From positions 1-64,000 of the forward strand of contig JABYQU010000047.1 of NCBI GenBank assembly GCA_022264855.1: DNA of 64,000 nucleotides, in the 5' to 3' direction. This DNA is from Lenzites betulinus. Its lineage: Eukaryota > Basidiomycota > Agaricomycetes > Polyporales > Polyporaceae. Positions within the stretch are counted from its first letter, which is position 1; each line of letters starts with the position of its first letter. Positions 939 to 24,647 of the stretch are shown piece by piece. The notes beneath the pieces were generated by a model that had not been told where the DNA came from, ran no database searches, and saw nothing but the letters and a program-made list of their open reading frames with translations. Position numbers and translations under genes: made by a program.

Positions 939-956
939 CCCTCGCGGTGGGCTCCA
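939..956 (-). other. Primer-binding site of LTR element 1
   Basis: On the minus strand the sequence starts TGGAGCCCACCGCGAGGG, three bases after the LTR end. A TGG start matches the complement of a tRNA 3' CCA end. The same 18 bases at the same 3-base distance are found at 23995-24012. The priming tRNA was not identified. Confidence 0.7.
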
Positions 957-959
957 AAA

Positions 960-2565: not shown

Positions 2566-3200
2566 TGATGCACTGGAACCTGCTATAACAGCAGGATAGA
2601 GGGCGCGGCCGAGAGCCTAGGGGGCGAGGCCGGACGTAGTGCGGGGAGGGAAGGATAATGCCTGCGAGTAAGGGCCGGTTTCCCTTCACTGGGCTTCCAC
2701 GAAGCGTCGCAGGTCGCGGTCGTCCCGCTATCGCAGAGGGAAGGTGGGTACGCGGTCCGTCGGTTCTATCGCAACCGGTCGCAGTGCCAGCGAACTGGTA
2801 AGGAGGCGTGGACGGGGCAGTCGCGGTGGTCAGGGGAAGCCGTGATCGCAGTCGCAAGTTCGCGTCGCAGCTCGCGGTCGCAGTTCGCAGTTCGCGGTCG
2901 CAGTCGCAGTCGCAGTCGGTACCGGGGCCGGTCTATGAGATCTGAGGGGTGGGGATTGCTTGCCTCCTGAAAACTACGGAGCACGGAATATATACATGGA
3001 CGATACCGGGTCGCTCTCCCAAAGTCCGAGATCAGCCGGTCGCACGGCCAGACTCCTCCTGCTGCGACTACGGTCCTCAGGCGCCCGCGACTCAGCCGGG
3101 CGTGCGACGGCTCGCGACGGCTTGCGACGGCTGCGCCGAAGCCTGCTACGCCCGTACCTAACTGTACCGCTCCGGCCTCAGCGGGCCGCAGGTCGCATCA
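2566..3200 (-). repeat. 3' LTR of element 2 (copy A)
   Basis: 635 bp, TGATGC...GCATCA, near-identical to 24016-24647 and 61531-62162. A 17-base hairpin-like word, CCTGCTATAACAGCAGG, lies 15 bases inside the left end, and a TATA-like stretch (gaatatatacatgg) lies near 2986-3000. Confidence 0.85.
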
Positions 3201-3212
3201 TCTCCCCCTCAC
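3201..3212 (-). other. Polypurine tract of element 2
   Basis: Minus strand GTGAGGGGGAGA immediately precedes the TGATGC start of the 3' LTR, the expected position of the plus-strand primer. The same tract adjoins copy C at 62163. Confidence 0.65.
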
Positions 3213-3341
3213 TGAGATCCCGACCGCCCTCGGTCGGCCATCGATGCGATCGCGCGATAGACCCTGCGATAAAGGTCACCATCTGCCCACGGAGGCCCAC
3301 CTATCCTTTTCGCTCTCTCTCCTATGCGCGGTATCGCCACC

Positions 3342-3988
3342 ATGGATAACTTGGTCGAAATCGAGGCCGCATCGGCTCGCCTGCGACAGACTACTATCTC
3401 CCTGGCCCGTGTACAGGTCGAAGAGCAGGCGGCCATTATGGAGGAGATGGTCGAGACCGGCTATAGCGTCGCAGATTGGGAGGACGCCATCGACCGCTTC
3501 CTGTACCGCACGGTACGTCCTATCGGCCAGTCTCCTGCTCTGCGAGCGATGCGATACTGAGCTTGCCTTCCTAGGAGTCGTACTTCTTGATTTCCCTCGG
3601 CGATACCGTGATGACGCCTCTCCTTACTCGCGCCCGAGTGGCCTTGCGCGCCCTGGAACGACACAGCGAGTACCGCGGCGCAGTCGCAGACTTCGACCGA
3701 CGACTCTTTACCATGTCGCGCGACCTGGAAGGTGTCTTCTTAGCTGCCGCCCGCCAGCGCCTGGTCCTTCTACGCTCTCGCTCCTCTGCGATCCACAACG
3801 TTCTTGCGATCGCGGGCGCCGACCGGTCCGTGGACATGGCCCAGTCGCAGGATATCGCGGGCGCGATCGCCCGTCTTCAGCGCGACGTCGCGGCCGCCCA
3901 AGACGCCTACCGTGGTGGAGAGCGCACGGTACTGGTCGACCGCCCTGAGGAGGCTGGTGGTCGCAGCCATGGAGGAGGTTGCGACTAA
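3342..3988 (+). pseudogene. Antisense ORF1 of element 2, copy A (frameshifted)
   Basis: Antisense to the retroelement. The start sits in a strong context (GCCACCATGG). Exon 1 (3342-3512, MDNLVEIEAASARL...) joins by a gtacgt...cctag intron to exon 2 from 3575 (ESYFLISLGDTVM...). The product is a small, charged, mostly helical protein, rich in Arg, Ala and Glu, with no domain I recognise. Compared with the copy at 62304-62965 it has lost bases around 3950-3960 (gctggtggtc against gccggatgggtc), which shifts the last ~10 codons. The close match between copies suggests recent common origin. Confidence 0.6.
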
Positions 3989-4181
3989 TCGTTCGGGTTA
4001 GGAAGGAGGGAAGACACCTGAAGGCAGGAGACGAATTGCGATGCGTGTAGTCTAGCCCATCGATGGATTAGATGTCTTGCGATCGGTTCCCGATTGCGAC
4101 CTCGTGTGGCCCACTCCTTCCTATAAGTCTGCGACCTGCGATGCGACCAGCCTGGTATCGCACGCCCCAGTACTCCGCGCC

Positions 4182-4779
4182 ATGGATCCCCTTCCTGACC
4201 TTGTCCGCGCTATAGACTCTCTCTGCGGCGAACTTGTCGACCCCGCCCTCTACCAGTTAGAGTCGCAGGTTGCGACCATCGAGGGCACCCTTCTTCCGTG
4301 GACCGCCTGATATCCGCCACTGGCACGTCCTTGCGACGCGTGTCCTGGTCGCCATAGTGCGTATGCTAGCTGCTTCCCAGCGCAGTCATTGACCCGTAGT
4401 CGCAGGAAGCCTGTATTGCGATGGGCTGCGACCAAGCTCTTGTGGATGCCGCGACCGCCCGCGCCCTCTCGGTCCTGCGATCGCAGACTGCGTACCCCGA
4501 CCTCGGCCCCTGGTTCCTGCGAGAGAGACTTCGGTACACAGCCGCTCAAGAATGCCTTACTCTCGAAGTGACTCGCGCCCAGCTACGTTTTTGGTGTCGC
4601 GGGCCGACGCGGCTCGCGGAGTGGCCAGTCGCGCGGGCGGGCCGGGCATACATTGTCTTCTGCTCTTCCAGCATCCGAGGGGCTTCGGCGCGCGCCTTGC
4701 GGGGAACTGAGCACGCGCTTACCGAATTAGGGGAGATGGAGGCGTCGGCCTCGGTGCCGCGGGGGCGGGACTGGACTAG
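4182..4779 (+). pseudogene. Antisense ORF2 of element 2, copy A (frameshifted)
   Basis: Begins MDPLPDLVRAIDSLCGEL and continues in the next exon from about 4406 (EACIAMGCDQALVD..., ...RERLRYTAAQECLTLEVTRAQ). The intact counterpart is 63146-63749. Copy A carries indels near 4290 (lost bases before the DSPDI segment), around 4590 and near 4741, so it cannot encode the full product. The predicted protein is helical and charged; no known domain is visible. Confidence 0.55.
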
Positions 4780-5203
4780 TCAGGGGAGGCGGGCCGCCCG
4801 AAACGGAGGAGTAGGGAAGCCCGGCGCGGCCGCCGTTGGCGTCTATGGTGTATTTCTGGCGCGCCAATCCTAGCTCTGGCATTTGCGACCCGTTGCGATC
4901 GGGGACGATCTGGTGGGAACGCGTCGCGCGCTCCGCTGCGCTCTGAATGTACCCGCGTAGCGCCTGTTCGACTGGGTCGCGGCGCGTCAGCGCTAAGTCT
5001 CCGTGCGCTGGAAATTTTGCTTCCGCGATGCTTCGGCGCTTGACGTGCCGCGTGCTTGCGACTGTCAGCGCTTCCCGACCCTGCGCTGCTGCCGTCCGCG
5101 AAGGGCTGCGAACAGCTAAGTACTCGTCGCATCGGTCGCTGGACTTTGCTCTCTTCGACCTCTCTCCGCTTACTCCCCCGCTTGCTTCATCATCCCGCAC
5201 GCC

Positions 5204-7001
5204 ATGGCCAGCTCTCTACGCCCGCCGCCAAGAAAGGCAAAGGTCGCGCCGACCCCGCGACCGTCTGCGCCGAGACCGTAGAGTACCTCGAGGACTTGTT
5301 CAAGGCGCTCCCGAGGGCGTCGCAGGCCCTTCCGACTACGCCGCCTTCGCCTTCTCCGCCTTGGGATGGATGTACGTCCCTTGCGACTGCGACCGCTCCT
5401 CTTTGCTGACTTGCCTCTCCCAGCACCGCCTAGAGCGCTACGACGCCGAGCCCGCGCTAGTCGCTCAGTGGGGCGACCGCGTGTTCGCGGCCGTCGACGC
5501 GGGGCTCGGCGGCTACTCGGGCGCGGACGACCCCTCTCGCGACGACCTATACGTCGCGCGCGCGAGCGCGCCGCCGCCGCCCTGGTCGCGCGACGCGAGG
5601 AAGAGCCCGGAGCGAGATCGAGGCTCGTCGCAAGGTTGGGCAGACGCGCGCGCCGCGGCCGCGGACTCGGACGACGAAGACGACGTCCCCTTGCGACCCC
5701 GCCCCAGCTCGCCCCGCTCCGCCCGCTCCTCCCGCTGCTCCCCGGACCCGTGCGATGATGCGAGCGTCCAACGCCCCTCCGATCGCGGTGAAGGCTCCGG
5801 CCGCGACCAAGTCGCGCCCCCGCAAAGCTCGCGCCTGCGATCCAGCTCGCGCCCGCGACCAAGCCCGCGTCTGCGACCAAGCCCGCCTCCACGCTGAAGG
5901 TCACTCCCGTGGCCAAGTCCGCGCCCGCGCCTGCCCCCTCGACGCCCCAGAAGTCCGCCGCGCCGGCCGCGACCGCTCCCACACCTCGCCCATCTCTCCG
6001 GCTGGCCCCTCGCGCAAGCGCGCCCGCGAAGGCGAGGACTTCGTGCTGGTCACGAAGCGACCGCGGACCGGAGGGCTTCGAGCCTGCGACCTACCCGCCG
6101 GTGCGGCCTGCCCTCGGGCAAGGAGGCGGTAAGTCTTGTCTGTCCGTCTGCGACCACGCTAACCCCCCCTTCTATAGTGTGCGCAGTGCCAGACCCTTGC
6201 GCGCCCCCGATGCGTCCTGCGTCGCGGGTGCGCAAGTGCGATCCGCTGCGTGTACTCGCAGAAGGGGTGTTATGCCGCGGCCACATCGACTATGGAGAGT
6301 GGTACGACAGCAACGGCTTCGACCACGGTACGTCGCAATGCGCCCCCCTTTGATTTTCTTGCGATATTGACCTCTTTCCTCGGCCTAGCGAACCCGCCCA
6401 TCGGGCACATCTGGCGTGCGGTCCTGACCGCGAAAGGCGCCCCTCCGACATCCCCAGAGTGCTGCCGCTTGCCCGAAGGAGTCACGGAGGAGCAGGCGAC
6501 CGCCCAGGAGATCGTCGACATCACAGCCGGTGTCGTCGCGCAGCACGCTGCCACTGGAGCCGCGACCGACCCCGCCCCTGCGATCGCGACCTCGCCTGCG
6601 ACCGCGGCGGCGACCGCTCCCGCGACCACTCCTGCGACCGCGCCAGAGGCCGCGCCGAAGACCACGCCTAAGGCCACACCGAAGGCCGCGACGACGGTGA
6701 TTACGCCCAAAGGGACGGGCTCCTTTCTCCTCCGGCCCTTCCCCCCTTGCGCCTCGACGCCTCCGCCCGCTCCTCGCGCCCCGACGCCCCCTTCTGCGAT
6801 CGCAGCCGCCCGGGAGGAAGACATCACCATGGCCCCCTCTAGCGCGGCCCAGGACGCGGAGCGACTTCCTTCAGTTTTGGTGAGCAAGTTGTTCCCTCCG
6901 GTACAGTATACTCGGCTGATCGTGTCCTACCCCGGCCAGGAGGATCTGCTCCACATCAGGACGCGACCTCCTCCGCGCACCTACACCTCCTGCTGTAACA
7001 C
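5204..7001 (+). pseudogene. Antisense ORF3 of element 2 (Cys-cluster protein, decayed, interrupted by KDZ)
   Basis: Third plus-strand gene of the antisense cluster. Pieces in different frames give a consistent product: MASS, KKGKGRADPATVCAETVEYLEDLF, then ALGWM, an intron (gtacgt...ccag, about 5371-5422), HRLERYDAEPALVAQWGD, an acidic/proline-rich linker with the basic patch KRAREGEDF, a second intron near 6130-6178, a cysteine cluster beginning CAQCQTLARP, GHIDYGEWYDSNGFDH, a third intron, and an Ala/Thr/Pro-rich tail. At least three small indels (near 5212, 5310 and 6215) break the frame. The tail reads into the KDZ insertion point at 7002; skipping KDZ it would continue for about 20 codons from 19577. 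The Cys cluster suggests zinc binding; function is unknown. Confidence 0.5.
6981..7001 (-). pseudogene. Last codons of Gag of element 2
   Basis: If the KDZ element and one copy of its flanking TGATGCATCA are removed, the Gag frame from 19577 continues over these bases as VLQQEV and a TAG stop. Gag therefore ended tail-to-tail, overlapping antisense ORF3. Confidence 0.4.
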
Positions 7002-7011
7002 TGATGCATCA
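7002..7011. repeat. Left flanking TGATGCATCA of KDZ element
   Basis: Palindromic 10-mer present on both sides of the KDZ element (also 19567-19576). Keeping one copy restores open frames on both strands, so it is probably a target-site duplication or contains one. Confidence 0.6.
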
Positions 7012-7410
7012 GAGGCCGTACAGCGCCCACCCCCCGTGATGCACCAAAGACCGTACGTTTAGGCGCCCCCTTGGCGAGGTGCGGGGTTACTACTGGGCCC
7101 TCTCGGCACCTCGGCACATGTCCTAAAGCGGTAATTCGTGTGTAATATGTCGCGCGCACCGCGTAAACGCCTCCCGGACGTATTATTCAGCTTCGCGTAG
7201 TGTATACAGAGCGCCCGGGCGCCCCTTCCTCCTCCCGGGCACCTCGGGGATGCCCTTGGAGAGCGCCCGGCCACCTACCAGCCTCCCGGGCACCTCGGGG
7301 ATGTCCTGGGAGAGCGCCCGGCCACCTACCAGCCTCCCGGGCACCTCGGGGATGTCCTGGGAGAGCGCCCGGCCACCTACCAGCCTCTCGGGCACCTCGG
7401 GCATGATCTA
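7012..7410 (+). repeat. Left terminal inverted repeat of KDZ element with 51-bp subrepeats
   Basis: About 399 bp, matching the reverse complement of 19169-19566 with few differences. The inner ~200 bp hold three to four tandem copies of a 51-bp GC-rich unit that contains CCACCTACCAGCC and GGGCACCTCGGGG. Confidence 0.9.
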
Positions 7411-7445
7411 GAATGGAGATTACTTATATTATATGTACTAAAGTC

Positions 7446-10400
7446 CTATCCCCAAACAGTTTGCTCGGTGCTTTCCTGTCCTTGGCTCTCGAGATATAGT
7501 TCATACAGATGCCTGTCGTCAGTTGCTGCAGAATCAGCTGCCTGATATGTGGCGGTCCTACTGGATGACGTGTCAGTCACCGCTGCCCACTCCTGCCCGA
7601 TGCCCTGTCCAACAGAGTGTGCCAAGGTGAGCCACATGTTGCGGAATGTGGCTCGCATTGAGCGCCGCGCCTGCGCCTGGCTGATCGCGTATGCAGCCAG
7701 GCCTTCCTCCAGTGCCTCGCCGGTATCGGAACGGCGGCCAATCTGTACATACCAATGTACCTCTTGCCACTCGAGGAACGCGAGCACCCGCCGCATTTCC
7801 TCTGGCAGCAGTCGCCTCTCCTCTGCCCAGCGAGTGACCCGTGCGCGTGACTTGCACCATTCCACCCTGAGGGACTCCACCATGCCCACATCGCCGTCGC
7901 GATCTGATGCACGCCAGATCCACGAAAGTACGCGATGTCCTTCTGACTCTCCAGTGTCCTTCTCGCGCCGCCGCCGTCTCTGGACTGCCTCCAGATCGTC
8001 GTCTTGCACGCATCGAATGTCCTTGTCTGCGAGGACTCGGAATTCGGTTTCCCATTCGCCAGCACCGCGCAGGGAGAGGAGGGCCGATCGTGCACGGCGA
8101 TACTTCGCTGCCGCACCCCGGATTCGAGCTTCCTGCGCTGCAAGATCGGCGCGCGCGCGGGTGTTGGGTCCCTGGTGTCGAACGTGTAACTTCTTGTATG
8201 TGAATAGCCGCTGCTTGACGTGAAGTTGGTTTCGGAGATCTTGAAGCGAGTCTCGGCACTGCGCGTCCCGTAGCTGCATCTCCATGTCCACCAGGCCCTC
8301 GGCGCAAGTAGCATGACGAGATTCCACCGGAATTTGTGAGGGCAACCCGAGGATGACGTCCTCGAGTGTCTCGGTCGTTGTTTGAGCCGCTGGCATCGTA
8401 AGGAGGATGGGAGTTGCGGCCGGCATGTACACGGCTAGAAGTTCGCGGAACTTCTGTAGACGACGGCGAAGCACAGTGCGCTGTTCGTGCACCTGGGGGA
8501 CCTCGGAGAGCGTCGCATTCACCCTGTGACACTGTATCCGGTATCTAACATAAGTCAGCACACAACCGATGGACACAGGGATCACCACTTCACGTACTGT
8601 AGATCCTCTACGTCCAACCCAGATGTTATAAACCCTAGCATGCTCACTTCATTCAAAGCCACGTATCCCGCCGCCGCCGCCGCCGCCTGCTCTTTCGCGA
8701 CCAGCGTCTTCTTGGTCTCCGCCTCTGTGGGACCTGTGTTTACGCCATCTCAGAGAAACACAGGACATTGGAGAATGGGAGATATATACCGGTTGTGACC
8801 ACTACATACGGATCCGGAGCGGTGGAGGGGCTTTTCTCCCATGCTTCAACAGCTGCCCGCCATGCAGCGACGTTGTTGTCTTCCAGAGAGCTCGTTAGAG
8901 CGTTGAATAGCTCCTCGTGTTCAGCATGCTGCTGGATAGCTTTCTCTAACCGCCGATAGAGCAATAAGCCTGTAGGTAATCAGTCAGAACACCATTGAGC
9001 GTATCAATGTACAACGCACCAATGTCGCAGGTCTTCCGCCAGTTAGCGTAGTTCCACTGATCCTCCAAGATCCCCTGCCGCTGCCCTGGCCCCATGACTC
9101 TCGTACTATGTGCAGTCGGCTGGATCCACCACCACCGCCTCTCTGATCCTTCACCGTCACCCCGTGCAGCCCCCGGAATGTAGTTCAACGAAAATCGCGA
9201 ATGGTCGACGGACGTGTGGCTATGGAAGTGTAACTTCGGGATTCCGTACTTGATCGACCCTTCCGGCAGGGGAATTTGGAGGTGAGAGGGAAAGCGAGCG
9301 ATGCGCTCGACAAGATGTTTGGACCACTGACATGCGATATCGTATGTGACGAGCTTGCCCAACCGGAGGAAGTAGCGAAGGGCGCACACAAATATGTAGT
9401 CCATGTAGATGTATCTGCGTTCGGATCATCAGCAAATGCCTCAGCAAGGAAGACTGGATACTCACCGTTCGCCCTTCAAAATATCCGCTAATCCATTAGC
9501 TAGCATAAACTCGTGACGTGCACATATGATTGCGCCGACCCCGGTCGCTGCGTAGCCACTTGAGAACTTCGAATTAGCATGGGCAATGGCAGAGAGACCT
9601 GTACAGGTAGACTCCTACGTCGAGTATAAGTTAGAGTAGCTATATCACCCGGTAGGCAGTATAACTCACCTCATCCTGGTCGCCGTAATCCTTTAGTAAA
9701 GCATGGTATGCAGCATCCTCCACAAAGTAACCCCAACCACTCCCTAGGATCGGATCTTTGTCCGTATTTGAGACGTCGCGACGTTTGAGACGAAAACACG
9801 CATCCATCGCGACGGTAAGGATATACAGGTACCTGCCCAGATATTGTACATCAGGATGAATCAATCGCATATGAACGTAGGCAAACTCACTTCAGGTCGT
9901 CAGACGCGTCCTCCCAATTTGGTGGAAGATTGATGTCCGGCTGGGGACATGCTGGGCAGCGAATTGCTAACTCTCCCTCCCGAGTGCCATCGACCCCGGT
10001 TGGGTCGTGTCCTCGTCCTGCACGCTTGAGCATCTTCAGATGACGCCATTGGGCGACGACCCGCATGAAGGCCTTGTATCGGTCCTGGAGCTTCACTGAC
10101 CCAGTGTTGTCGGTTTGCCTCTCCAGGGTCGTGTAGTAGTCGTACATCGAGATCTTCCCCTGTAGGCTCTGGATGTGGTAGTGCTCCAGTAGGCGGAATG
10201 TGAAGGCAGTGTTCGGGTCTGTCTGTGTAGCAGGGAAAAGGCGGCGGCGTAGTAGTTGCTCATAACGGGACCCGGCCTTCTTTGCTTGATCGCATGCACA
10301 GAACGACAAGGCGATATTGTGCTGTCCGTGGATATCGACCACGCAGAAGTCTTTGCGCGCGGGGTCGGGGTTGGCACAGGGAGAATTGTCTGCATGTCCT

Positions 10401-11246
10401 AGTTGTACACGAAGACCTAAGTCGCGAAGGTTTGTAACGACATATGCCCGTCCGGTCCACCTCTGCAAGCCATGTCAGCGATGTTCTCGCTCCATCAGAG
10501 CCAATACTCACCTGTACCCTATGACACCATCCATACTTGTGTGCCTCGATCGCACATCCCTCACAGCGAAGCGGTTGTGGGTCACAGTCGAGACAGCGAA
10601 TGACCGCGCGATGCATGGGTGCGTCATGGCAATGAAGGCACATTTCGAAGGGGTAGTCCCCTCGTCCTTCGTGTCGAAGTAGCTCGTTGAGGTATGAGTC
10701 GCGATATGGCACAAAAGCGCCCATAGGCTCATCCTATTGGTATGTCAGACTCTGTCCAGACAGTGCAGGAAAGCAGCGCCAACTCACTGAACTGAGATAT
10801 CTTTTAGCTGCCTCTTCCAGGATATCCGACGCTGCATTAGCTGTCGCCTGTTGCGGTATCCCATCCTCGACGGAGTACGCCTCAAAATCGAAGGTTGGCC
10901 CTGGCAAGTCTTGCGCATAGTGAGAAGCCAGTTCGAACGGCACAGGTGCCGGGGATTCTTCAAGTGCACCGGAAGGCTCGGCGGGGGAGGGCCCCGGAAT
11001 GGGACTTCGGTAGAGGCGTCGAAGGTCGGAAGATTGAACGTCGGCGGAGGCATAAGGGAGCTGAGTGTTGGCAGTGAACGCTGCTGGCGTGGAAGGACCG
11101 CTGGTAGGCGTAGCACGACCAGAGGTAGCCACGAGGAGAGCTGGTGTTGATCGTTGTCCAAGAGCAGCCTCAGAGGAGATGTCGAAGTCGGCGCATGCGG
11201 TGTTGAGAGACTTCACGCGCTGTCGTTTGTGCCTCCTAGGTAGCAT
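7446..11246 (-). CDS. KDZ transposase with CxC2-like cysteine cluster
   Basis: Catalyses movement of the surrounding element. Nine exons in descending order: 11246-10788, 10733-10512, 10462-9891, 9832-9670, 9614-9466, 9414-9020, 8969-8790, 8733-8598, 8544-7446; all junctions keep phase and give 1124 residues. Residues ~165-245 form the Cys/His cluster known from these transposases (CLHCHDAP, CLDCD, CEGCAIEAHKYGWCH, then RWTGRAYV). The RNase H-like core follows with candidate acidic residues in TVAMDACFRL, VTYDIACQWS and GILEDQWNYAN, plus the family signatures TGVGAIICARHEF and KGERYIYMDYIF. The C-terminal third is a long charged helical region (RRLLPEEMRRVLAFLEWQ). The start at 11246 gives a basic N-terminus (MLPRRHKRQR). 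No stop or frameshift was found, so it may be active. Confidence 0.9.
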
Positions 11247-11635
11247 GAGCAGGGATAGATTTCGTGTAGACGCACAGGCCGGCTGTCGTCCGCCATATTT
11301 GTCCAGGGCCTGTGCGCAGTACACAGGAGATTAGTTTCATGCTTAGATCTACGCGCTCAGGCAGCGTCGGCAATGTGATGATTGTGATACTCACCCTTCA
11401 CCCCGGCCGGGTTATTTCGATTGAGATTCCAACTTGGCGGCATACGCCCAACGACATCTACAGCTGCGTTCCTAGTGGGGATAGACTTGGTGAGTGTTCT
11501 CAGTGCATGCAATGATAGGGAGACGGCGTACCTCGCGTGGATCCGCCCTTGGAACCCGGATGGCACTATGTCTCAACTTGCATCTGCATTGCACCTGTGC
11601 GAAGTTGTGAGTTCTGTTCTGACTACATTACAGAC
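11247..11635. promoter_or_regulatory. Divergent promoter region between transposase and TET/JBP genes
   Basis: 389 bp separate the two start codons, so both genes are probably driven from here. No clear TATA box was recognised. Confidence 0.4.
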
Positions 11636-13406: not shown

Positions 13407-13563
13407 ACACTCTGATGGCTCGTCTCAGTGAGGGCGCCTAAAAGCGTCTTAAGACGCTCCTGTGCTGAGCTGCAGTTGAGTTCGCAGCGTCTACTCTAGA
13501 GACGCCAGGCTGTTGGGCTCAATCGGCGTCACTTCGCACTTCAACCATCTCTCTCTGGCCAAT

Positions 13564-14301: not shown

Positions 14302-14430
14302 TTCTCCATATAATTGATGCACCACTCTAAGTTTGGGGGGAGGACACAAGGCATCTGAATTGTAGCGATACTGAAGCACACATCATACATCAAAGCAGAC
14401 ATAGATGGGGGACTAATAAAATGTCCGCGC

Positions 14431-15506
14431 TCAGGCATTCTCCATGATTGGCTGACCAACACGGCCGGCGGCCAGCTCCTGTTCATAGAATCTAGCCGCC
14501 TTCCTACGGGAACGGAAGGCGGACATCTTACGGCCAGGCAGGTTCCCCATCATGATCGCAGCCGTCTCCCTGGGCGAAAGTATGTTAGTTACCCGAGCGC
14601 GCAGAGACAATTGTACACCTACTTGTCAGTGTACACTCCAGGGTGGTCCCCTCTCACGACGACGTACGCCCTGCCTTCGGGCACAACGATCGACGACGTG
14701 GCAGTTGAAGCCAGCGAAGACAGAGTGACCGCGGGGGATGCAATAAGCCCGGCGGGGGTGTGCGCCTTGGCGACGCTCTCAGGCTTAGCCGAGGCACCCT
14801 GAGAGTTGTTCGGCGGCTGCAAGTTTGACGCCGCGTGGAGGGTGGGCGGCTTGGCCGATGCTTTGGTGCCAGGCTGAGGCGACACCCGTGAGGAGACCAT
14901 GATGGGAGAGGGCCGAGGTCGAAGAGGAGTTGAACGCACGGCGGGGGCGGGAGTGGGTAAAGCATTGGCGAGTTCCTCGCAGGAGAAGTAGGTCTCATCT
15001 GTCCCAGAGCTCGGTCCCTGTTTCTTCGAAGCACCGGAAGCCTTGGTCGGTCCCTCCGGTGTGGAAGCCGCGATTGTAGGGGATGGAGGAGGGGTTGGCG
15101 TGGCGACATCAGGCCCGAGGCCAGGCAACGCGGCGGGTCCGTAGCCTGGTGTGGGGAGGGCGGGGCGAGGATGGACAGGCGGGGTCCAGACGCCGCGCAA
15201 AGGTCCCCAGTCCGGCCCCTCAAGCCACGCCTGACGAGCCCGCTGGAGATTCTTGAATCCTTTGAAGAGGGTGCCCGGGAACCCAGAGGTGAGTGCTCCA
15301 CATATGCCCCTGTATTTCAAGACCGCCGGTGAGCTGTATTCAAAGGAAGATGAGGCTACAACGTACCAGCCGAACACTATCCCCATCGCCCTCCCATGCC
15401 AAACGACGTAGATAATCTCTCCCTTATGATACTCGCCGATGGGGACGATTTCCCCGGATTCATCGTAGATGGGGTGGGCCCCAGCTGAACGGCCACCGCA
15501 TCCCAT
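14431..15506 (-). CDS. KDZ-cargo protein with two RNase H1-N (viroplasmin)-like domains
   Basis: Three exons (15506-15367, 15309-14623, 14569-14431) give 321 residues. The first domain reads YVVWHGRAMGIVFGW, then after the intron SGFPGTLFKGFKNLQRARQAW; the second, at the C-terminus, reads YVVVRGDHPGVYTDKE, NLPGRKMSAFRSRRKAARFYE. Both fit the pattern of the caulimovirus viroplasmin / RNase H1 N-terminal fold, which binds RNA:DNA hybrids or dsRNA. Between them lies a ~190-residue Pro/Ser/Ala-rich linker. No RNase H catalytic domain is attached. The start at MGCGG was chosen; an upstream in-frame start at 15704 would overlap the promoter of the divergent gene. Its role in transposition is unknown; domain calls are from motif pattern only. 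Confidence 0.7.
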
Positions 15507-15737
15507 TGCCGGATGGTTTCTGGATTGATTCTGGAGGCCATACGAGCGGGGGGATGAGAACAGATGGCAGTTTGAGAACAAGTTGCCTGGGAGCGGGTTC
15601 CTCGCGTATGGATTTAAATAACGTGACCGTAACGAGTGCCTTGCGGTCAGCACGTGTGCGCGTTGAGTGCCGAGTCTTGCGCGCTTAACACTCTGCTCGC
15701 CCACTCCGGTCTGCTGCTCGCTGCGCTCTGCCTAGCT

Positions 15738-18700
15738 ATGCCCGTCAGATATCGCTCATCTGCAGCTGTCCGGAAGAAGAGGACGTCAAAGCGGAAGAAG
15801 AAGGGCGGAAAGGCCGGGAACCAGGGGCTCTTCCACGGCCAGCGCAAGGAGTTCATGGACCGCTGGTTCTCGCGCTTCGTGGATGTCATCGACCAACCTA
15901 ATGCCACCGTCAACGAGTTCTGGCAAGATCTCTTCGAAGAATACTGGGCTACATTCCCGTGGCTTCTTCCTCTCGATAAGGAGCCGGATGAAGAGGGCGA
16001 CTGGGATGAACCGGAGGAGATGTCGGAGGACATGCAGGAGCAAAAACGGGGAGTCATTGGCAAGATACAGCAGGTACGTTCGCTGCATAATGCCTATTGT
16101 GATTGGTGCATGATGCATTCTCTTTAGCAAATTAAGAACCACATGCGCTACCGCAGGAATGCCCGCTCGCGTAAGGAACAAAACCCGTGGGCAGGCGTCC
16201 TCGACTCCTTGCGCCATCATGCCACCATTGCTCCACCGCGCAAACTCCCGCCTTGGCAGCTCTATATGACTCTGAAGGCGACTGAAGTATCGGAAGTCTT
16301 CGACGAGCGATGGCCGGCAGCAGGGCTCAGGGACTCTGAGGGGCTTAGCTTCCGCGCAGCTATTGCGCGCGAGTTGTTACGCGCAGAATCGGATGACTAC
16401 AAGAAAGAGCTCCGGGACGAATGCGACCGTCGTCACAATGAGGACTTGGAACGGATGGCGGAGTACATCCCTCCTGACGGTCCCTCAGATGCGGAGCAGC
16501 AAATAGCGTGAGTGCCGTGCTACTACCTCTAGATGACGCGCAACTTACAGTCTTGTATAGGGCTCGCGATCAGCTTGCAGTCGTCGTGCAACCTCTGCTT
16601 GAGATGCTCCGGGCCTACACGGGAATGTACTTCACTCTCATTGCCGGTGTCCCCAACATCACGGACCAGAAGGAATTTTGCTTGAAGATGTAAGTTACAC
16701 TCAGTCGCAGCAGACATGAATTACACTAACCTTCATCCTCAGTATCAACGCCGGTAAGACTGCGGGGCCAGTCGGTCTTCATTGGTACCAATACGAGGGT
16801 CAACGCTTCAGCGACGACGTCATGCAGTCCTTCACACGATTCCTCATGGCAACCCCTGGTATGTATCCCCGTTTGTTACCTAACGTCCTGCATGGCTGAT
16901 TGATGTTATAGAATATGCACAACGGCAAGCTACTCTCCAAACCTCATCGACACCATCCACGCTCTCAACTCCTACGACACTCTCCTCCCTTGGCCTCAAC
17001 CTCGCAGCTCCTCCGAGTACAACACCCACCCCTCCGGTAGCTACGACACAATTATCGACTGTACCTGCCGGTGCGTCGGTGGCTCAGAGACGTAAAGGCA
17101 AGGCAGGGCAGTCTGGGAAGAAGAGACAGGGAAAAGGGAAAGCCCGTGCGCGTGACTCAGACGAGTCTTCGGCGGAAGAATGGGAGAGTGACTCTCGGGA
17201 CAATGACGACGAGGTGGATGAGCTACTCGGTGATGACGATGAGGACGAACTCGAGGAAGACGACGACCTTGGCGCGGACGACGAGGACGAGGACAACGAG
17301 AACGATGACGAGGACGACGACTACTACTGGCTTGGCCTGGACGAAGACGACATACCTACTATGGAGGAGCTTGGCGTAGGCCCAGTGATGGCAGTCGAGC
17401 TCGATGCTATGACTGAAGCTGCCCGGCGCCGGTGGCTCGTCGAGGCCGGGGATTTGCCCACGTTTGAGCGGGTCGCCTATATCAACAGGAAAGAGCACAC
17501 CGCCAATATGCGCCGTATCCGCGAGGAGGTCGGGTTTCTGATGAAGCCATCGAAAAAACCCACCCCGCCTGCTGCAAAATCTGCAGTCGCCACTCGCCAA
17601 TCTTCGCGCCTGCGTAAGGCCGCAACGTCCAACGGTGGGACAACATCAGCAACCACAACAACCACCGCGGGCGCGACGGCCACCACCGCGGGCACGACGG
17701 CCACCACCGCGGGCACGACGACCGCCGCCGCGGGCGCGACGACCGCCGCCGCGGGCACGACGACCGACGCCGCGGGCACGACCGCCGCGGGCACGACGAC
17801 CGACGCGGGCACGACGACCGACGCGGGCACGATGAGCGCCGCGGGCACGACCACGACCGCCGCGGGCACGACCACGACCGCCGCGGGCACGACCACGACC
17901 GCCGCGGGCACGACCACGGCCGCGGGCACGACCACGACCGCCGCGGGCGCGACCACGACCGCCGCGGGCGCGACCACGACCGCCGCGGGCGCGACCACGA
18001 CCGACGCGGGCACGACGACCGCCGCCGCGGGCACGACCGCCGCGGGCGCGACCACGACCGCCGCGGGCACGACCGCCGCGGGCGCGACGACCACCGCCGC
18101 CGCCACCTCAGGCTCGACAACAGCTACCGGAGCCGCGACGGCTCCAGCAGCCGCGACAACTCCGACGTTGCTCACAGCGGCCACGCCCACTCCGGCAGCT
18201 TGCACTACGCCCCCAATGCCAGCAGAGGCAGTGGCGACCACGCAGGAAAGCGCATCTGCAATCGTATCCTCTAGCGCGCTCACAACGGCAACAATTGCGC
18301 CAACAACAAGCGCAATTTCTCGCCCCCGAGAGTGGAGTGGCCTGTATGGGTCAGCGAGGTGTATGAACACCTTGCAGCGCGTGGGTATGGTGACGAATAC
18401 CAAGGGGCGCTGGAAGGCTGGGTTGTCTTGGAAGGGACTTACAAGTGGGAGACTCCGGTGAGCTTCCTTGCCACCAATCTCTCGCATTGGACGTTGACTA
18501 ACATCTTTAAAGACTCAAGGGCTACCCACTGCAAACCGGCCAAAGGAGGTCAGCGAGTGGATGAAGTGGGGGCGCAAGCTCAACCGCCTCCCATCCATGC
18601 CTCAGGACGTCAACTTCGCCAAGTCCTGGTGGGCATGGTGGAGATCTCTCCAGCCAGGGTGGCGCACATTCGGCGAAGACGGCCGTCCTCTTCCACTTCA

Positions 18701-18997
18701 TGGCGCTCAAGGCGAGTGGGGGGAACTTGTCAGGCCTGGTAAGAACGGAATCATGCTGGTACTTCTCACTCTGGCATGGTGGAAGGACGTGATCAGTCCG
18801 GCGACGCTTCAAGACTGGCATCAGGCGGTGACCGATGTTTGCTGGGTTGTCACTCAGATGGGAGCTAGTGGTCGAGTCTCCGGGTGAGTGGCGCGGCCGT
18901 ATAGTATTATTGCTCATACTCAACAAGTCGTAGCATCAAGCGTGGACGAGGAAACGATGGCACGTCGTCCTCACGGTCTGCTAAGCGTCGCCGCTAG
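15738..18997 (+). CDS. Large KDZ-cargo protein with acidic and Ala/Thr repeat regions
   Basis: Multi-exon gene: 15738-16073, 16128-16507, 16561-16689, 16743-16858, 16912-about 18263, about 18311-18462, 18518-18883, 18934-18997. The N-terminus is basic (MPVRYRSSAAVRKKRTSKRK), followed by WFSRFVDVID and INAGKTAGPVGLHWYQYEG, an acidic run (DDDEDELEEDDD, 17220-17330), an Ala/Thr/Gly low-complexity region, then a Trp-rich C-terminal domain (EWPVWVSEVYEHL, WWAWWRSLQPGWR, LTLAWWKDVI) and a basic tail (SAKRRR). Proteins of this layout are common next to such transposons in mushrooms, but the function is unknown to me. Around 18264-18325 the frame changes: either a 47-bp intron (gtatcc...acaag) or a one-base slip in a run of five C. 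Confidence 0.7.
17640..18110 (+). repeat. GC-rich coding repeat (Ala-Ala-Gly-Thr-Thr units)
   Basis: Tandem copies of a 15-24 bp unit around gccgcgggcacgaccacgacc encode AAGTTT-like peptides. The pattern is imperfect, with units of differing length, as expected from slippage. Confidence 0.85.
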
Positions 18998-19168
18998 TGG
19001 ATTACATGACAACATCCTTCACCGCCCTTGTATCTGTGCACTTCCCTGTACCTCGTTCCCCATGATGATCCTTTATAACTCTCCGCCTAGCCCCCTTGTA
19101 TACATTTACTTCTGTAGTTGTGCAATCTACATGTAACCAGGCGCTCTCCAAGGGTATAAACCCCATGG

Positions 19169-19566
19169 TAGATCATCCCCGAGGTGCCCGAGAGGCTGGT
19201 AGGTGGCCGGGCGCTCTCCCAGGACATCCCCGAGGTGCCCGGAGGCTGGTAGGTGGCCGGGCGCTCTCCCAGGACATCCCCGAGGTGCCCGGGAGGCTGG
19301 TAGGTGGCCGGGCGCTCTCCAAGGGCATCCCCGAGGTGCCCGGGAGGAGGAAGGGGCGCCCGGGCGCTCTGTATACACTACGCGAAGCTGAATAATACGT
19401 CCGGGAGGCGTTTACGCGGTGCGCGCGACATATTACACACGAATTACCGCTTTAGGACATGTGCCGAGGTGCCGAGAGGGCCCAGTAGTAACCCCGCGCC
19501 TCGCCAAGGGGGCGCCTAAACGTACGGTCTTTGGTGCATCACGGGGGGTGGGCGCTGTACGGCCTC
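19169..19566 (-). repeat. Right terminal inverted repeat of KDZ element
   Basis: Reverse complement of 7012-7410 with few differences, including the same 51-bp subterminal tandem units (about 19180-19345). Confidence 0.9.
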
Positions 19567-19576
19567 TGATGCATCA
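19567..19576. repeat. Right flanking TGATGCATCA of KDZ element
   Basis: Second copy of the palindromic 10-mer at 7002-7011. Confidence 0.6.
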
Positions 19577-19860
19577 TCGCTACAACAGCAGCTGGGCGGA
19601 GTCCCCGGTCGTGGCCGTTGGGTAGGTCGCCGATAGGAAGGTACCTCTACTCCGTCGAAGCGTTCTTTGGTCCGTCGCAGAGCGTAAAGCTCGTACTCCA
19701 GCTGTGCGATCCGGTCCTCCGTCGCAAGCGCAAAGCCACTCGCCGTGTACGGGTCCTCTGCGATCTCGAACACCATCTGCGACGCCGGCCGCGACGCGAG
19801 CTGATTGGGATTGCGACGATGCCACTCGTAGACTCGATCGCGCATAGTGAGGCCATTGAA
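19577..19860 (-). pseudogene. C-terminal part of Gag, element 2
   Basis: Minus strand reads FNGLTMRDRVYEWHRRNP, then an acidic/helical stretch (ATEDRIAQLEYELYALRR) and a Pro-rich tail (SYRRPTQRPRPGTPP). It is the continuation of the Gag at 22572-23530, separated from it by the foldback element. If the foldback and one copy of ATTGAA are removed, the two Gag halves join but are one base out of frame, so this copy is probably dead. Confidence 0.65.
19855..19860. repeat. Target-site duplication ATTGAA, left of foldback element
   Basis: ATTGAA occurs again at 22566-22571, directly after the right end of the foldback element. Confidence 0.6.
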
Positions 19861-19861
19861 G

Positions 19862-22565
19862 CACTTGTGGTTGCCACCATAATAATATAATCCCCCACCA
19901 GACTGGTGCACACCTCGTGTATTTTGTGATCACCACTTGTAATTGTTTAACGCTACCCAGCCATTGTATTATAAGTGTCAAGTATTATATTATAAGGACC
20001 ACCTATTGTACAATCCCTGGGCAGTTTGTTTTTGATACTGTGGGCGCGTATTTGGGATTGTACAATCCCTGGGCAGTTTGTTTTATATTCTGGCAGCTGT
20101 GCCTGGTTTGCGTTTATCCATTATACAATCAGTGCCTGCTTGTAGGTCCCTGTTTACCGCTTAATGGGCGCTTTTTTGGCTTCCTAATAGGGTAGGCATA
20201 CCAAATGACCGCATTTGGGCGCTTTTTTGGCTTCCAAATGGGGCAGGGCCTACTACCACCCCCTGGGGGCTCCCTTTTGGCCCCCTGGGTGCATTATTGC
20301 CCACTTTGTGCCCTATGTATATGTGGTGATCATGATACATATCAGGGTGTTCTGTGGGGGCTAAAAACCGACCAAAAGCAGTCAAAAAAGCGAACCCAGG
20401 GCAGGGGTCAGCAGGTCCTGGTAGGTGCATGCAGCATATTATTGGTTCCTCTGGGCCCATTATGTTGATCAATATATCATTTGAAAGCTATAGCACAGGG
20501 CTTTCTGGGACAGCTATTTGCATAGCCCCCGATGCTGTACTGATGAAGATATGGCCTTTCGCATTTTCGCAAAAAGCAGCCGTTTTGTTTGCTCAATAGC
20601 TCCTGATCCAGGGCACATATAAATCCACCCTATACACCGTTAGATTTGTATTTAGCAGACCTTTGAACAGGCCTACTCTCAGGATATTCCATCCACATGT
20701 ATTCTGCCCTCCTCCTGCCTCCCTGCCAATAGATCACCCTCCAGGGCCCTCAGTTCCTAATGGATTCCCTTGAAAGCCTTTGTAGTGTGTACTGGCAATA
20801 TATCCATACATATTGCCAGCTTGGCATGGTTTAAATGGCCTACCCCTTACGTGCCCTCTTGCTGTACATTTGGGGCACTTCCAGCTTGTTTGCTCCATAA
20901 TATTATATCCTGTACAGATATGGCCCTGCTCTCTTTTGCATGTTGTCTGTGTATACTATAGCTACCATAAATGTGCTCAAAAGTGTTATCATACATCTAG
21001 ATCTCTTATAGGCTCCTTATCAGTAGCCCACAGTGTAGCCCAATCTATCGCTTTTGGGGGCATATTATTTAGATCAGACAGCACAGCTGTACTGGCATAG
21101 TGTTCAGGATTACATTGCACCAAACATCATGAGATTTGGTGGAGAAGTGACGGAGGTATGGGCAGAATATCCCAAATGGTGGTCTACATGCTTAAGCACA
21201 GCTTACAGCAGTGCATTCATGTATTCTTCACCAACTGCATCAGAGGCTGTTCTGAGTGTTCCTCCATACCTCCGTCACTTCTCCACCAAATCTCATGATG
21301 TTTGGTGCAATGTAATCCTGAACACTATGCCAGTACAGCTGTGCGTCTGATCTAAATAATATGCCCCCAAAATGCGATAGATTGGGCTACTTGTGGGCTA
21401 CTGATAAGGAGCCTATAAGAGATCCAGATGTCTGATAACAGTTTTGAGTGCATTTATTGGTAGCTATAGCATACACAGACAACATGCAAAAGAGAGCAGG
21501 GCCATATCTATACAGGATATAATATTATGGAGCAAACAACTGGAAGTGCACCAAATGTACAGCAAGAGGGCACGAAGGGGTAGGCCATTTAAATCATGCC
21601 AAGCTGGAAATATGTATGGATATATTGCCAGTACACACTACAAAGGCTTTCAAGGGAATCCATTAGGAACTGAGGGCCCTGGAGGGCGATCTATTGGCAG
21701 GGAGGCAGGAGGAGGGACAGAATACATGTGGATGGAATATCCTGAGAGTAGGCCTGTTTAAAGGTCTGCTAAATACAAATCTAACGGTGTATAGGGTGGA
21801 TTTATATGTGCCCTGGATCAGGAGCTATTGAGCAAACAAAACGGCTGCTTTTTGCGAAAATGCGAAAGGCCATATCTTCATCAGTACAGCATCGGGGGCT
21901 ATGCAAATAGCTGTCCCAGAAAGCCCTGTGCTATAGCTTTCAAATGATATATTGATCAACATAATGGGCCCAGAGGAACCATTATATGCTGCATGCACCT
22001 ACCAGGACCTGCTGACCCCTGCCCTGGGTTCGCATTTTTGACTGCTTTTGGTCGGTTTTTAGCCCCCACAGAACACCATAATATGTATCATGATCACCAT
22101 ATATACATAGGGCACAAAGTAGGGCAATAATGCGCCCAGGGGGGCCAAAAGGGAGCCCCCAGGGGGTGGTGGTAGGCCCCTGCCCCATTTGGAAGCCAAA
22201 AAAGCGCCCAAATGCGGTCATTTGGTATGCCTACCCTATTAGGAAGCCAAAAAAGCGCCCATTAAGCGGTAAACAGGGACCTACAAGCAGGCACTGATTG
22301 TATAATGGATGAACACAAACCAGGCACAGCTGCCAGAATATAAAACAAACTGCCCAGGGATTGTACAATCCCAAATACGCGCCCACAGTATCAAAAACAA
22401 ACTGCCCAGGGATTGTACAATAGGTGGTCCTTATAATATAATACTTGACACTTATAATACAATGGCTGGGGTAGCGTTAAACAATTACAAGTGGTGATCA
22501 CAAAATACACGAGGTGTGCACCAGTCTGGTGGGGGATTATATTATTATGGTGGCAACCACAAGTG
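19862..22565. mobile_element. 2.7-kb foldback (long inverted-repeat) element
   Basis: Two arms of about 1.3 kb each (19862-about 21165 and about 21265-22565) are near-perfect reverse complements, with a ~100-bp centre. The ends read CACTTGTGGTTGCCACCAT... and ...ATGGTGGCAACCACAAGTG, flanked by ATTGAA on both sides. The arms are AT-richer than the surrounding element and hold repeated words such as TTGTACAATCCCTGGGCAG (20010-20110). No ORF of any length that looks coding is present, so it must be mobilised by a transposase encoded elsewhere. It sits within gag of the LTR element. The superfamily could not be assigned; a 6-bp duplication is only suggestive. Confidence 0.85.
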
Positions 22566-22571
22566 ATTGAA
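22566..22571. repeat. Target-site duplication ATTGAA, right of foldback element
   Basis: Partner of 19855-19860. Confidence 0.6.
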
Positions 22572-23530
22572 CCATGCATGAACCTGGGCACATACATCCC
22601 GTTGGGTAGACAGACCCGTCCTTCGTGGTTCCGGATACACCGCCCTGCGTCGACGTCTTCCTGGACAAAGGGGCAGTTCCGTAGCATGCAGCCGGCGTTC
22701 CCGCAATAGTGGCAGAAGCCGTCGTTCTGGTCCTGCGTCGCGTAGCTCCCCGACAAGCGATTCTGTTGCGACTGTGCGGCAGGACCAGGGGCGTTTCCTC
22801 GCTCGTTCACGGACTGTGCGAGCAATCGCAACAGAGGGGCGAGGTCTTCCACCTTTACTGACGGGTTCGCGACATTTGCGGTCGCGTTGGCGCTAGATGG
22901 GAGGGGGGCGGTTGCGAGCGTTCCGTGGAGGACAAACTTCGCGGCCTCGTACACTTTGTTTAGCTCGTAAGGGTCGTCCGGATAGTGGTCCGGGTCTTTG
23001 AGCTGCAGCCTCTGCGACACTTGGTCCCATAGGGGAGCGCGGATTCCTTTGACGAACAGACGCGACTGCTCGGACGTCGACAGTCGCGCTTGCGATATGA
23101 GGTAGGTGGTCATCGCGAAGAAGTCGCGATAGTAGCTGGATAGCTCGGTGATGCTAGTGATTGCGACGGCCGCTCGTCTTGCGACGAGTGCCTCGACATC
23201 TGCGACCGAATATTTGCGCGACTCTTCCGCGCCAGGGTATAGGTCTGTAACCGCTTTGACGAACTCGCGATACGCGACTCCAGCTCCATAGGCCGGGAGG
23301 CTCTCGCAGAGCTCGGATACGTCGATCGGTAGGTACCGCACTACCCACTGCTTGCGCTGTCGGTCCTCCTCTACTCCGCTGCGCTCGAAGAGCGCTTCGA
23401 TATCTTGAAAGAAGCGTCGCAGCGTACGCGGCTGTTCCGGAGTGAAGGTGGGCGCGGTCGAGTGACCTCGCGCTGGCATGGCCGGTCGCAACTGCGGCGC
23501 TGGTGGTGGCGCTTCCTGTGGTTCTGGCAT
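22572..23530 (-). pseudogene. Gag N-terminal and zinc-knuckle part, element 2 (split by foldback)
   Basis: Retroelement capsid/nucleocapsid protein. From the ATG at 23530 the frame reads MPEPQEAPPPAP, MPARGHSTAP, the capsid-like helical region (RTLRRFFQDIE, WVVRYLPIDV, LRLLAQSVNER) and a zinc knuckle near residue 265, CHYCGNAGCMLRNCP, which has a Cys in place of the usual His (CX2CX4CX4C). It ends in PNGMYVPRFMHG at the foldback insertion. The frame is open with no ATG for ~150 codons upstream to about 23987 and is similar there to element 1. The codons are rich in GCGA/TCGC. It lies directly behind primer-binding site and LTR. No protease or polymerase follows. Confidence 0.75.
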
Positions 23531-23994
23531 AACGTCCACGAATGGGTTCTCGAAGAGGTCCTCTAAGGGGGACAGGGGGGAATGAAAGGCTGGCGCTTGG
23601 TATTCAGTCGGTTCGCGGCCTTCCGAGTCGCGTGGTGTGGGACTAGCGGGTGAGAGGCTGGTCGGGGAGAGGTTTGCGATGGCTAGGGCCGCGTCGCGGA
23701 ACCAGTCGCAGGCTGCGGGGTCGCGTCGCAGAAGTTCGCAGCCGCGGTCGAGGAGAACAAAGACCGGTTCTATGATCGCAGAGAGCCTCTCGTCGTCTAG
23801 GTGGTGGCTGAACTGGGTGATGAGCAGCTTGAATCTTGCGACGAGTAGCTCGGAACCGAGATCGGGATCCTTGGTCGCTGCTCTTGTCTTGCGCTTCGGC
23901 GCCTGTTGTGTGCGTTGTCCCGGCTCAATGGCTGCTGCGACGACTGCCGTTTGGCCCGGGGAAGGAGGAATGCGGACTACTGCTTGCTATATCC

Positions 23995-24012
23995 CCCTCG
24001 CGGTGGGCTCCA
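23995..24012 (-). other. Primer-binding site of element 2
   Basis: TGGAGCCCACCGCGAGGG on the minus strand, three bases (TTT) after the LTR end; identical to the site of element 1. A tRNA ending ...CCCTCGCGGTGGGCTCCA would fit. Confidence 0.7.
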
Positions 24013-24015
24013 AAA

Positions 24016-24647
24016 TGATGCACTGGAACCTGCTATAACAGCAGGATAGAGGGCGCGGCCGAGAGCCTAGGGGGCGAGGCCGGACGTAGTGCGGGGAGGG
24101 AAGGATAATGCCTGCGAGTAAGGGCCGGTTTCCCTTCACTGGGCTTCCACGAAGCGTCGCAGGTCGCAGTCGTCCTGCTATCGCAGAGGGAAGGTGGGTA
24201 CGCGGTCCGCCGGTTCTATCGCAACCGGTCGCAGTGCCAGCAAATTGGTAAGGGGGCGTGGACGGGGCAGTCGCGATGGTCAGAGGAAGCCGCGATCGCA
24301 GTCACAAGTTCACGTCGCAGCTCGCGGTCGCAGTTCGCAGTTCGCAGTCGCAGTCGCAGTCGCAGTCGATACCAGGGCCGGTCTATGAGATCTGAGGGGT
24401 GGGGATTGCTTGCCTTCTGAAAACTACGAACTACGGAATATATACATGGACGATACCGGGTCGCTCTCCCAAAGTCCGAGATCAGCCGGTCGCACGGCCA
24501 GACTCCTGCTGCGACCACGATCCTCAGGCGCCCGCGACTCAGCCTGGGCGTGCGACGGCTCGCGACGGCTGCGACGGCTGCGCCTCAGCCTGTTACGCCT
24601 GTGTCCAGCTGTACCGTCCCGGCCTCAGCGGACCGCGGGTCGCATCA
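24016..24647 (-). repeat. 5' LTR of element 2 (copy B)
   Basis: 632 bp, TGATGC...GCATCA, near-identical to copies A and C. Its left end borders the primer-binding site; its right end joins the coding frame of a MULE transposase gene. Confidence 0.85.

Follow-up and report, generated by a model that had tools for sequence, protein, structure and literature searches.

The plant retrotransposons Grande, RIRE2 and Retand are known to carry antisense genes between pol and the 3' LTR, and a review of these elements notes Boty of Botrytis too (PMC7264820). There, the Grande antisense protein is described as nuclear and as having its own promoter, and a dsRNA-type limiting of retrotransposition is also raised for plant antisense ORFs (PMC7264820). 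For Boty of Botrytis cinerea, a reference title (Zhao et al. 2011, as listed in PMC8365987) names the antisense gene brtn, and the antisense gene HBZ of HTLV-type retroviruses is mentioned with its relatives in passages of PMC11963269. The possibility, raised in the initial annotation of the locus analysed here, that such an architecture is undescribed therefore has to be set aside, the plant elements having already been reviewed and Boty noted (PMC7264820). LTR elements are thus known to have antisense accessory genes, although these are unexplained, and with the fungal lineage described below their role can be tested directly in fungi.

The locus belongs to an element family (family 1) of Lenzites betulinus and was analysed in a window of 64,000 nucleotides (assembly GCA_022264855.1, contig JABYQU010000047.1, positions 1-64,000, forward strand). 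Two copies were detected, with the following parts.

2566-3200, minus strand: first copy (family 1), 3' LTR of 635 bp (TGATGC...GCATCA)
3201-3210, minus strand: polypurine tract (GAGGGGGAGA, read on that strand)
3342-~4001, plus strand: antisense ORF1, first copy (exons 3342-3512 and 3575-~4001; frameshifted near the end)
4182-4776, plus strand: antisense ORF2, first copy (two exons, frameshifted)
5204-6984, plus strand: antisense ORF3 of type B, first copy (exons 1-3 plus a portion of exon 4, carrying both frameshifts and stops and truncated by a transposon)
~6985-19593: KDZ transposon, a foreign insert with inverted terminal repeats (Pfam KDZ 1e-27, CxC2 3e-44)
19594-19862, minus strand: piece of the gag region, first copy (element positions 10209-10477)
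~19856-22571: fold-back element, a foreign insert (19863-22565 between the neighbouring gag pieces; 2.7-kb inverted repeat; 8-bp overlap of element positions at its flanks)
22566-23986, minus strand: N-terminal part of gag, first copy, including a zinc knuckle (C-x2-C-x4-C-x4-C)
23993-24012, minus strand: primer-binding site, TGGAGCCCACCGCGAGGGGG on the minus strand
24016-24647, minus strand: 5' LTR of the first copy (TGATGC...GCATCA)
61531-62162, minus strand: second copy, 3' LTR (the copy extends past the window end, through pol and gag, to about C51:73855)
62304-62965, plus strand: antisense ORF1, second copy (open, with exons at 62304-62474 and 62537-62965)
63146-63749, plus strand: antisense ORF2, second copy (open, with exons at 63146-63322 and 63372-63749)

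The direct LTRs, primer-binding site and purine tract of a minus-strand element, all reported in the initial annotation, were located, as were Gag on the sense (minus) strand and three spliced plus-strand ORFs beside the 3' LTR, whose GT-AG boundaries are kept across copies. The same annotation was borne out for the second copy, in which ORF1 and ORF2 are open and have GT-AG introns.

Alignment of the first copy with a 12.6-kb relative indicated that positions ~4424-10209 of the latter are missing, comprising the 3' part of ORF3, all of pol and part of gag, and the KDZ transposon occupies the exact site of this gap. Frameshift events numbered 2 in ORF1, 6 in ORF2 and 18 in ORF3, the last of which ends at the cut at ~6984. 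The LTR pair exhibited 94.2% identity, and no target duplication was detected at its flanks. This copy is a deleted, twice-interrupted remnant and was probably joined from two elements.

The position of pol was evident in other copies. Ty3/Gypsy pol adjoins ORF3 in seven of the eight copies whose sequence resumes beyond ORF3, although two of the seven may be a single locus; the second window copy is among them, with pol at C51:66636-69877, past the window end. Two copies, C60 and C81, may not be independent, having the same right flanks (437/437 bases) and different left flanks. Other copies were traced only part of the way: C37 meets a contig end, C31b and C61 were read for about 3 kb, C20b is a fragment, the match of C26 stops inside ORF3 with further ORF3 at the contig end, and that of C18 stops at ~2497, the remainder of the 16 kb read being free of family-1 pol. 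Fuller copies, of about 12.6 kb when complete, have the order gag-protease (an ORF of 957 aa), RT-RH-INT (a pol ORF of 1289 aa) and then the antisense ORFs. Pfam matched protease, RNase H, H2C2 and rve in that order; it returned no RT match in family-1 pol, and some relatives carry PF00078. Paired TG...CA LTRs, a primer-binding site, a purine tract, and gag-protease and pol in the expected order place the family in Ty3/Gypsy, and the antisense ORFs, sitting between pol and the 3' LTR, are placed as in the aORF-3R type. A search for pol in viral contigs gave nine pattern matches, none of which was a relative. Copies with matching LTRs and 5-bp target duplications, proposed for collection in the initial annotation, were absent among five complete family-1 LTR pairs, one of which (C81) had a 4-bp duplication.

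The claim that the antisense ORFs stand in place of pol was therefore wrong; the first copy looks pol-less because its copying machinery has been deleted. We consider it probable (about 0.68) that the elements are a Ty3/Gypsy lineage with its own gag-protease and RT-RNaseH-integrase, plus an accessory module that lies in the opposite orientation between pol and the 3' LTR. This module would encode ORF1 and ORF2, two small and probably paralogous proteins, and ORF3, a large protein that includes a six-cysteine exon.

The coding status of the module was assessed in intron and codon comparisons across copies. GT-AG was retained in 54 of 55 intron comparisons, and intron lengths in ORF3 varied between copies by non-multiples of three. 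Using C81 as the reference, and omitting C60 as almost identical to it, dN/dS values were 0.06-0.22 for ORF1 (11 copies), 0.08-0.22 for ORF3 (10 rows from 9 copies) and 0.12-0.38 for ORF2 (8 copies), with two exceptions for ORF2 in C20a and C26 (0.75 and 1.13) that rest on 3-4 changes. A spurious second alignment enters the figure of 0.46 for C60 pol (1100 codons). In the other forward frames, the values were high, at 0.65-3.9 where defined and not zero. One reverse frame was also low (0.05-0.40), as expected because wobble sites coincide, and in most cases it is interrupted by stop codons. Of the 11 copies that gave ORF3 rows, 7 had frameshifts in this gene (C51a, C51b, C98, C87, C20a, C26 and C37), some of these events possibly being alignment artefacts, and ORF1 of C31b holds a stop. 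Most copies retain the module, and its coding sequence is conserved, again as in the aORF-3R type. Frame controls, together with the conservation of splice sites and codons over many copies, ruled out chance open frames. At the level of sequence, these results indicated that the antisense module is genuine and is under purifying selection in family 1.

The encoded proteins were compared with one another and with known domains. Shuffle z values for the six ORF1/ORF2 cross pairs were 30.0, 17.6, 8.7, 5.0, 3.6 and 2.1, with helical composition uncontrolled in the shuffles, and the profile match spans 97 columns; ORF1 and ORF2 are probably paralogues. The match between family-1 ORF2 and family-2 ORF2 was not significant (z 2.1). 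ORF3 has a near-invariant six-cysteine exon beside a variable N terminus. In agreement with the initial annotation, none of the three ORFs matched a pol domain in Pfam; no other known domain was detected there either, and PDB sequence searches found none (best E values of 0.2 and 1.1). The cysteine exon had no Pfam match up to E 10, and a comparison of ORF3 residues 285-400 with a protein collection gave 258 candidates, none at E 1e-3. An ORF1 profile matched 4 family-2-like proteins among 7996 scored. AlphaFold prediction for ORF1 exon 2 (four sequences) gave a pLDDT of 58.3 and a pTM of 0.43.

The same layout was detected in two further families of this genome, with three antisense genes in family 2 (ORF1, ORF2 and ORF3, as in family 1) and two in family 3 (one ORF1-like gene and ORF3). 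The claim of an LTR element with a spliced antisense module was thus upheld by splice sites, low dN/dS values and both additional families. The family-3 exon has the spacing C-x2-C-x6-C-x8-C-x2-C-x6-C; its cysteine stretch exhibited no frame contrast, at about 0.6 in each of the first readings, in a 300-nt piece that mixes exon and intron. Intron-bearing antisense genes look host-like, and it is conceivable, though unlikely, that the cluster is a separate transposon, or a set of host genes that were captured, and entered an LTR element in a single insertion. Two pol relatives with 50% identity, C80 and C19, share only ~1.2 kb after pol and had no match in ORF searches of the genome; the module has therefore been gained or lost, and a single capture would be in keeping with this. 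Against such a capture, the module occupies the same place in three families with pol identities of 75-81% and ORF1 identity of ~31%, and is therefore old and inherited. Moreover, every ORF-search match among those read, a part of the total, lies in such elements, and a repeat search saw no terminal repeats belonging to the cluster itself.

Under the favoured reading of an inherited accessory module, the antisense genes would have promoters of their own and give rise to spliced antisense mRNAs. Genomic RNA of the element would carry just the complement of the introns, which would not be spliced out and would survive reverse transcription; antisense placement may let a retroelement keep intron-bearing genes because of this. 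The proteins would act in the nucleus as regulators of the element that encodes them, affecting its transcription, copy number or integration. Alternatively, the stretch could act as RNA, with convergent transcription producing dsRNA that limits retrotransposition and the ORFs being incidental or secondary. The module is convergent with pol, the stop codons of ORF3 and pol being ~390 bases apart in C81, and the same idea appears for plant antisense ORFs in PMC7264820. However, codon-level constraint and conserved introns favour proteins, making an RNA function of this kind distinctly unlikely as the explanation, although the two roles can coexist.

Copies with gag sequences 97-98% synonymously identical bear different types of ORF3, with dS of up to ~1; between C81 and C51b, dS was 0.6-1.2 for ORF3 and 0.03 for gag. 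Sharp edges of identity blocks were detected before ORF3 and near the pol end, and trees of separate blocks conflict. These alignments indicated that ORF3 has been exchanged between copies, which might have occurred by template switching. Between types A and B, divergence is far greater in the N-terminal exons than in the cysteine exon, as positive selection without exchange could produce, but the non-coding stretch directly upstream of ORF3 is equally diverged (67-68% at 2601-2800), dN/dS is low and the block trees conflict, so that selection of this sort is very improbable. One speculative suggestion, to which we attach little probability, is that ORF3 and its upstream region form an exchangeable self-recognition cassette, each type regulating or excluding only elements of its own type, with selection for compatibility groups keeping several types per genome. 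Such a cassette would resemble the immunity regions of temperate phages, near-identical gag-pol being combined with old, incompatible ORF3 types. These data are also explained if ORF3 was simply acquired from a diverged relative.

A pol-less make-up with antisense genes present does exist in one deleted copy of family 3, C46, which has identical 872-bp LTRs, a primer-binding site, a purine tract and a matching 4-bp flank (CCGG) and lacks gag and nearly all of pol. Despite this copy and the pol-less look of the first window copy, a non-autonomous element of Gag and antisense module mobilised by another element, as the initial annotation proposed, is scarcely credible and is rejected for family 1, since pol lies between Gag and the ORFs, the arrangement that this annotation itself named as refuting, in seven of the eight copies followed that far, the gap in the window copy coincides with the KDZ transposon, and the C46 junction was found in C46 alone among the copies scored (40 of 102 candidates). 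A single damaged copy can suggest an architecture that is absent from intact copies.

The canonical cysteine spacing of the fungal Zn2Cys6 DNA-binding domain fits family 3 only, families 1 and 2 having x7 and x11 in the first loop, and the likeness is a candidate one without a Pfam match. Membership of Retand was rejected, TRP28 (PF04195) being absent from the antisense ORFs in Pfam searches. HBZ of HTLV-type retroviruses offers an analogy only, as a regulatory gene that lies antisense and is read from the 3' side of a retroelement. Boty, compared through a title and a mention, is similarly a fungal LTR element with an extra antisense gene but differs in that the title names one gene. According to PMC7264820 and passages of PMC11963269, the plant antisense-ORF elements are alike in position, orientation, presence in most copies and conservation. 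The fungal families differ from them in having two or three genes with introns (known here from the fungal side alone), a six-cysteine exon and exchange of ORF3 types. Overall, the fungal module is a new, elaborate variant of a known antisense-gene architecture, offering two or three antisense genes, codon-level constraint, conserved introns, a probable duplication and exchange of one gene.

The antisense ORFs (ORF1 to ORF3) are genes with predicted introns lying opposite the gag-pol strand, and the initial annotation had placed them, with gag, in an LTR element "in place of pol". Thirteen copies of this lineage (family 1), named by contig of the same genome, were compared, with the fragment C20b set apart. 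Element sequence extended past ORF3 in eight copies and was pol, adjoining ORF3, in seven of these (C81, the reference copy, C60, C51b, C98, C87, C20a and C72); the eighth was the window copy (2566-24647, minus strand). C60 and C81 had a common right flank and may represent a single locus. C51b is the second copy of the initial annotation (61531 onward), followed here beyond the window end, where its pol lies. In a C31 copy, gag-protease (957 aa) and pol (1289 aa) were read in overlapping frames, with matches to protease, RNase H, H2C2 and rve. The presence of pol in seven of eight copies and the C31 frames therefore indicated that family 1 encodes its own pol. Mycena chlorophos (64%) was among the 120 pol relatives listed.

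All the annotated parts were present in the window copy: the LTRs, the primer-binding site (PBS) and the purine tract, gag, and the three ORFs on the plus strand. The C81 copy comprised 12,555 bases in the order LTR, antisense ORFs, pol, gag, LTR; alignment to it showed that the window copy spanned C81 positions 1-4424, 10209-10477 and 10470-12555. The missing 5.8 kb (the greater part of the final ORF3 exon, the whole of pol and a portion of gag) was occupied by an inverted-repeat transposon with KDZ (1e-27) and CxC2 (3e-44) matches, and gag was interrupted by a 2.7-kb fold-back insert. The left and right window LTRs exhibited 97.8% and 93.1% identity to a C81 LTR and differed from each other by 5.8%, and no target duplication was found in the flanks of this LTR pair. 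The window copy is a remnant, and we infer that it consists of two damaged elements, joined perhaps via the KDZ transposon. Inserts of ∼2.5 to 2.8 kb in ORF2, ORF3 and gag of C98 and C87, with element positions overlapping by 7 to 10 bases, are perhaps related to the fold-back insert. Using the LTR and 800 adjacent bases as a query of the genome (37.4 Mb, 108 contigs), at least 41 matches were obtained (40 of 48 candidates scored), several of them paired 12 to 18 kb apart. The window, which covers contig 51 up to position 64,000, also contained other elements and pieces of elements, including one of a related lineage (family 3).

Other features of the window
1-1829: 5' terminal part of a family-3 element, with its LTR at 960-1829 (95.6% to the LTR of the C46 copy), PBS sequence identical to that of family 1, gag-like minus-strand frame continuing past the contig start
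1830-2582, minus strand: RNase H fragment (7e-36) of a further Gypsy element, the target of the family-1 LTR insertion at 2566
6985-19593: KDZ transposon, CxC2/CxC1 cysteine-cluster matches; also a 525-aa frame with Ala/Thr-rich 21-base repeats (17618-18149)
27865-37963, plus strand: different Gypsy element; 1619-aa gag-protease-RT frame, gap, 1193-aa RNase H-integrase frame
61122-61340: 107-base tandem duplicate (98% identical) immediately left of the second copy

ORF1 and ORF2 of C81 each had two exons (199 and 184 aa) and ORF3 had four (665 aa). GT-AG was retained in the five introns in 13/13, 13/13, 10/11, 9/9 and 9/9 copies, the sole miss being the window copy, at the alignment edge. The dN/dS ratios suggested by the initial annotation were computed pairwise against C81 and were low in the coding frame of all three ORFs: 0.06 to 0.22 for ORF1 (11 copies), 0.12 to 0.38 for ORF2 (8 copies) and 0.08 to 0.22 for ORF3 (10 rows from 9 copies). 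Two further ORF2 pairs, with 3 to 4 changes each, gave 0.75 and 1.13, and C31b had zero nonsynonymous changes across 76 codons of ORF3. For comparison, the values were 0.03 to 0.07 for pol and 0.05 to 0.22 for gag (C60 excluded). The other two forward frames gave 0.65 to 3.9 (where defined and non-zero), and one reverse frame also had low ratios (0.05 to 0.40) because its wobble sites coincide. These results mark the antisense ORFs as real genes. Frameshifts were present in ORF3 in 7 of the 11 copies having ORF3 rows, and hence many copies are now broken.

Identity between C51b and C81 was 94 to 99% at positions 1-2600, 67 to 85% at 2601-4800 and 94 to 100% from 5201. Between these two copies, dS was 0.03 in gag, 0.105 in pol and 0.04 to 0.05 in ORF1 and ORF2 but 0.6 to 1.2 in ORF3.

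Types of ORF3 among the family-1 copies
Type A: C81, C60, C31b
Type A': C98, C87, C37, C72
Type B: both window copies, C20a (5' part), C26, C61

C31b grouped with C87, C18 and C37 in the tree of the ORF1-2 block (100/100) but with C81 and C60 in that of the ORF3 block (94/87). This conflict was accompanied by rejection of four forced groupings (p ≤ 7e-5), which had been picked after the identity profile was viewed. Elements have exchanged ORF3 together with the region upstream of it.

The third exon of ORF3 contained C-x2-C-x7-C-x8-C-x2-C-x6-C in family 1, x7 being replaced by x11 in a further related lineage (family 2) and by x6 in family 3. Only 3 of 50 residues of this exon differed between types A and B, in contrast to a dS of ∼0.7 in the preceding exon. 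The ORF3 protein has a basic stretch, KRARDDEDLVLVTKRPR, that may direct it to the nucleus; Pfam and PDB searches detected no convincing match for this protein.

A family-1 ORF1 query detected ten more distant places in the genome (30 to 33% identity). The one read, over 14 kb, was C43 (family 2), which had pol at 75%, an identical order and three antisense ORFs, although its ORF1 splice acceptor would be AAG instead of the usual YAG. The cysteine exon detected 12 places (41 to 43%), and the two read, C24 and C46, represented family 3, with ORF1 and ORF3 and no recognisable second ORF1-like gene. In all three families the ORF1 intron directly preceded E-(A/S)-x. Exon 2 of family-3 ORF1 had a dN/dS of 0.065 (103 codons; other frames 3.1 and undefined), and no contrast between frames was detected in 300 bases around the cysteine exon of this family. 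Elements C80 and C19 (pol at 50%) had ∼1.2 kb after pol in common, and genome searches with the ORFs and cysteine exon gave no antisense-ORF matches in them. This absence, and the presence of the module in three families, argue that it marks one branch of elements. Family-2 ORF1 aligned with family-1 ORF2 over ∼165 residues (z, 17.6), a genome search connected the two (E, ∼1e-4), and a profile comparison of ORF1 and ORF2 gave a probability of 84% (E, 7e-6); ORF1 and ORF2 are probably paralogues.

A family-3 copy at C46:194877-200352 had identical 872-bp LTRs, a PBS, a purine tract and antisense genes, only the tail of pol, and CCGG at both flanks; it is an internal deletion, either preceding or following insertion. 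In family 2 (sequence L027, ∼8200-8290), a stretch in the RNase H-integrase linker resembled the purine-tract side of the 3' LTR, and one guess is a central purine tract.

Overall, these elements have their own gag-pol and convergent antisense genes, with selection and exchange detected. The antisense genes would be driven by their own promoters and produce spliced antisense mRNAs, and introns could survive in a retroelement because the genomic RNA holds their complement. The proteins may have a nuclear regulatory role, and ORF3 may have been exchanged through template switching. Among the titles and abstract openings listed by searches of one open-access library, none described a basidiomycete Gypsy element with a spliced antisense module of several genes. 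The antisense gene brtn of Boty is a fungal precedent, mentioned in PMC7264820 and named in a reference title of PMC8365987.
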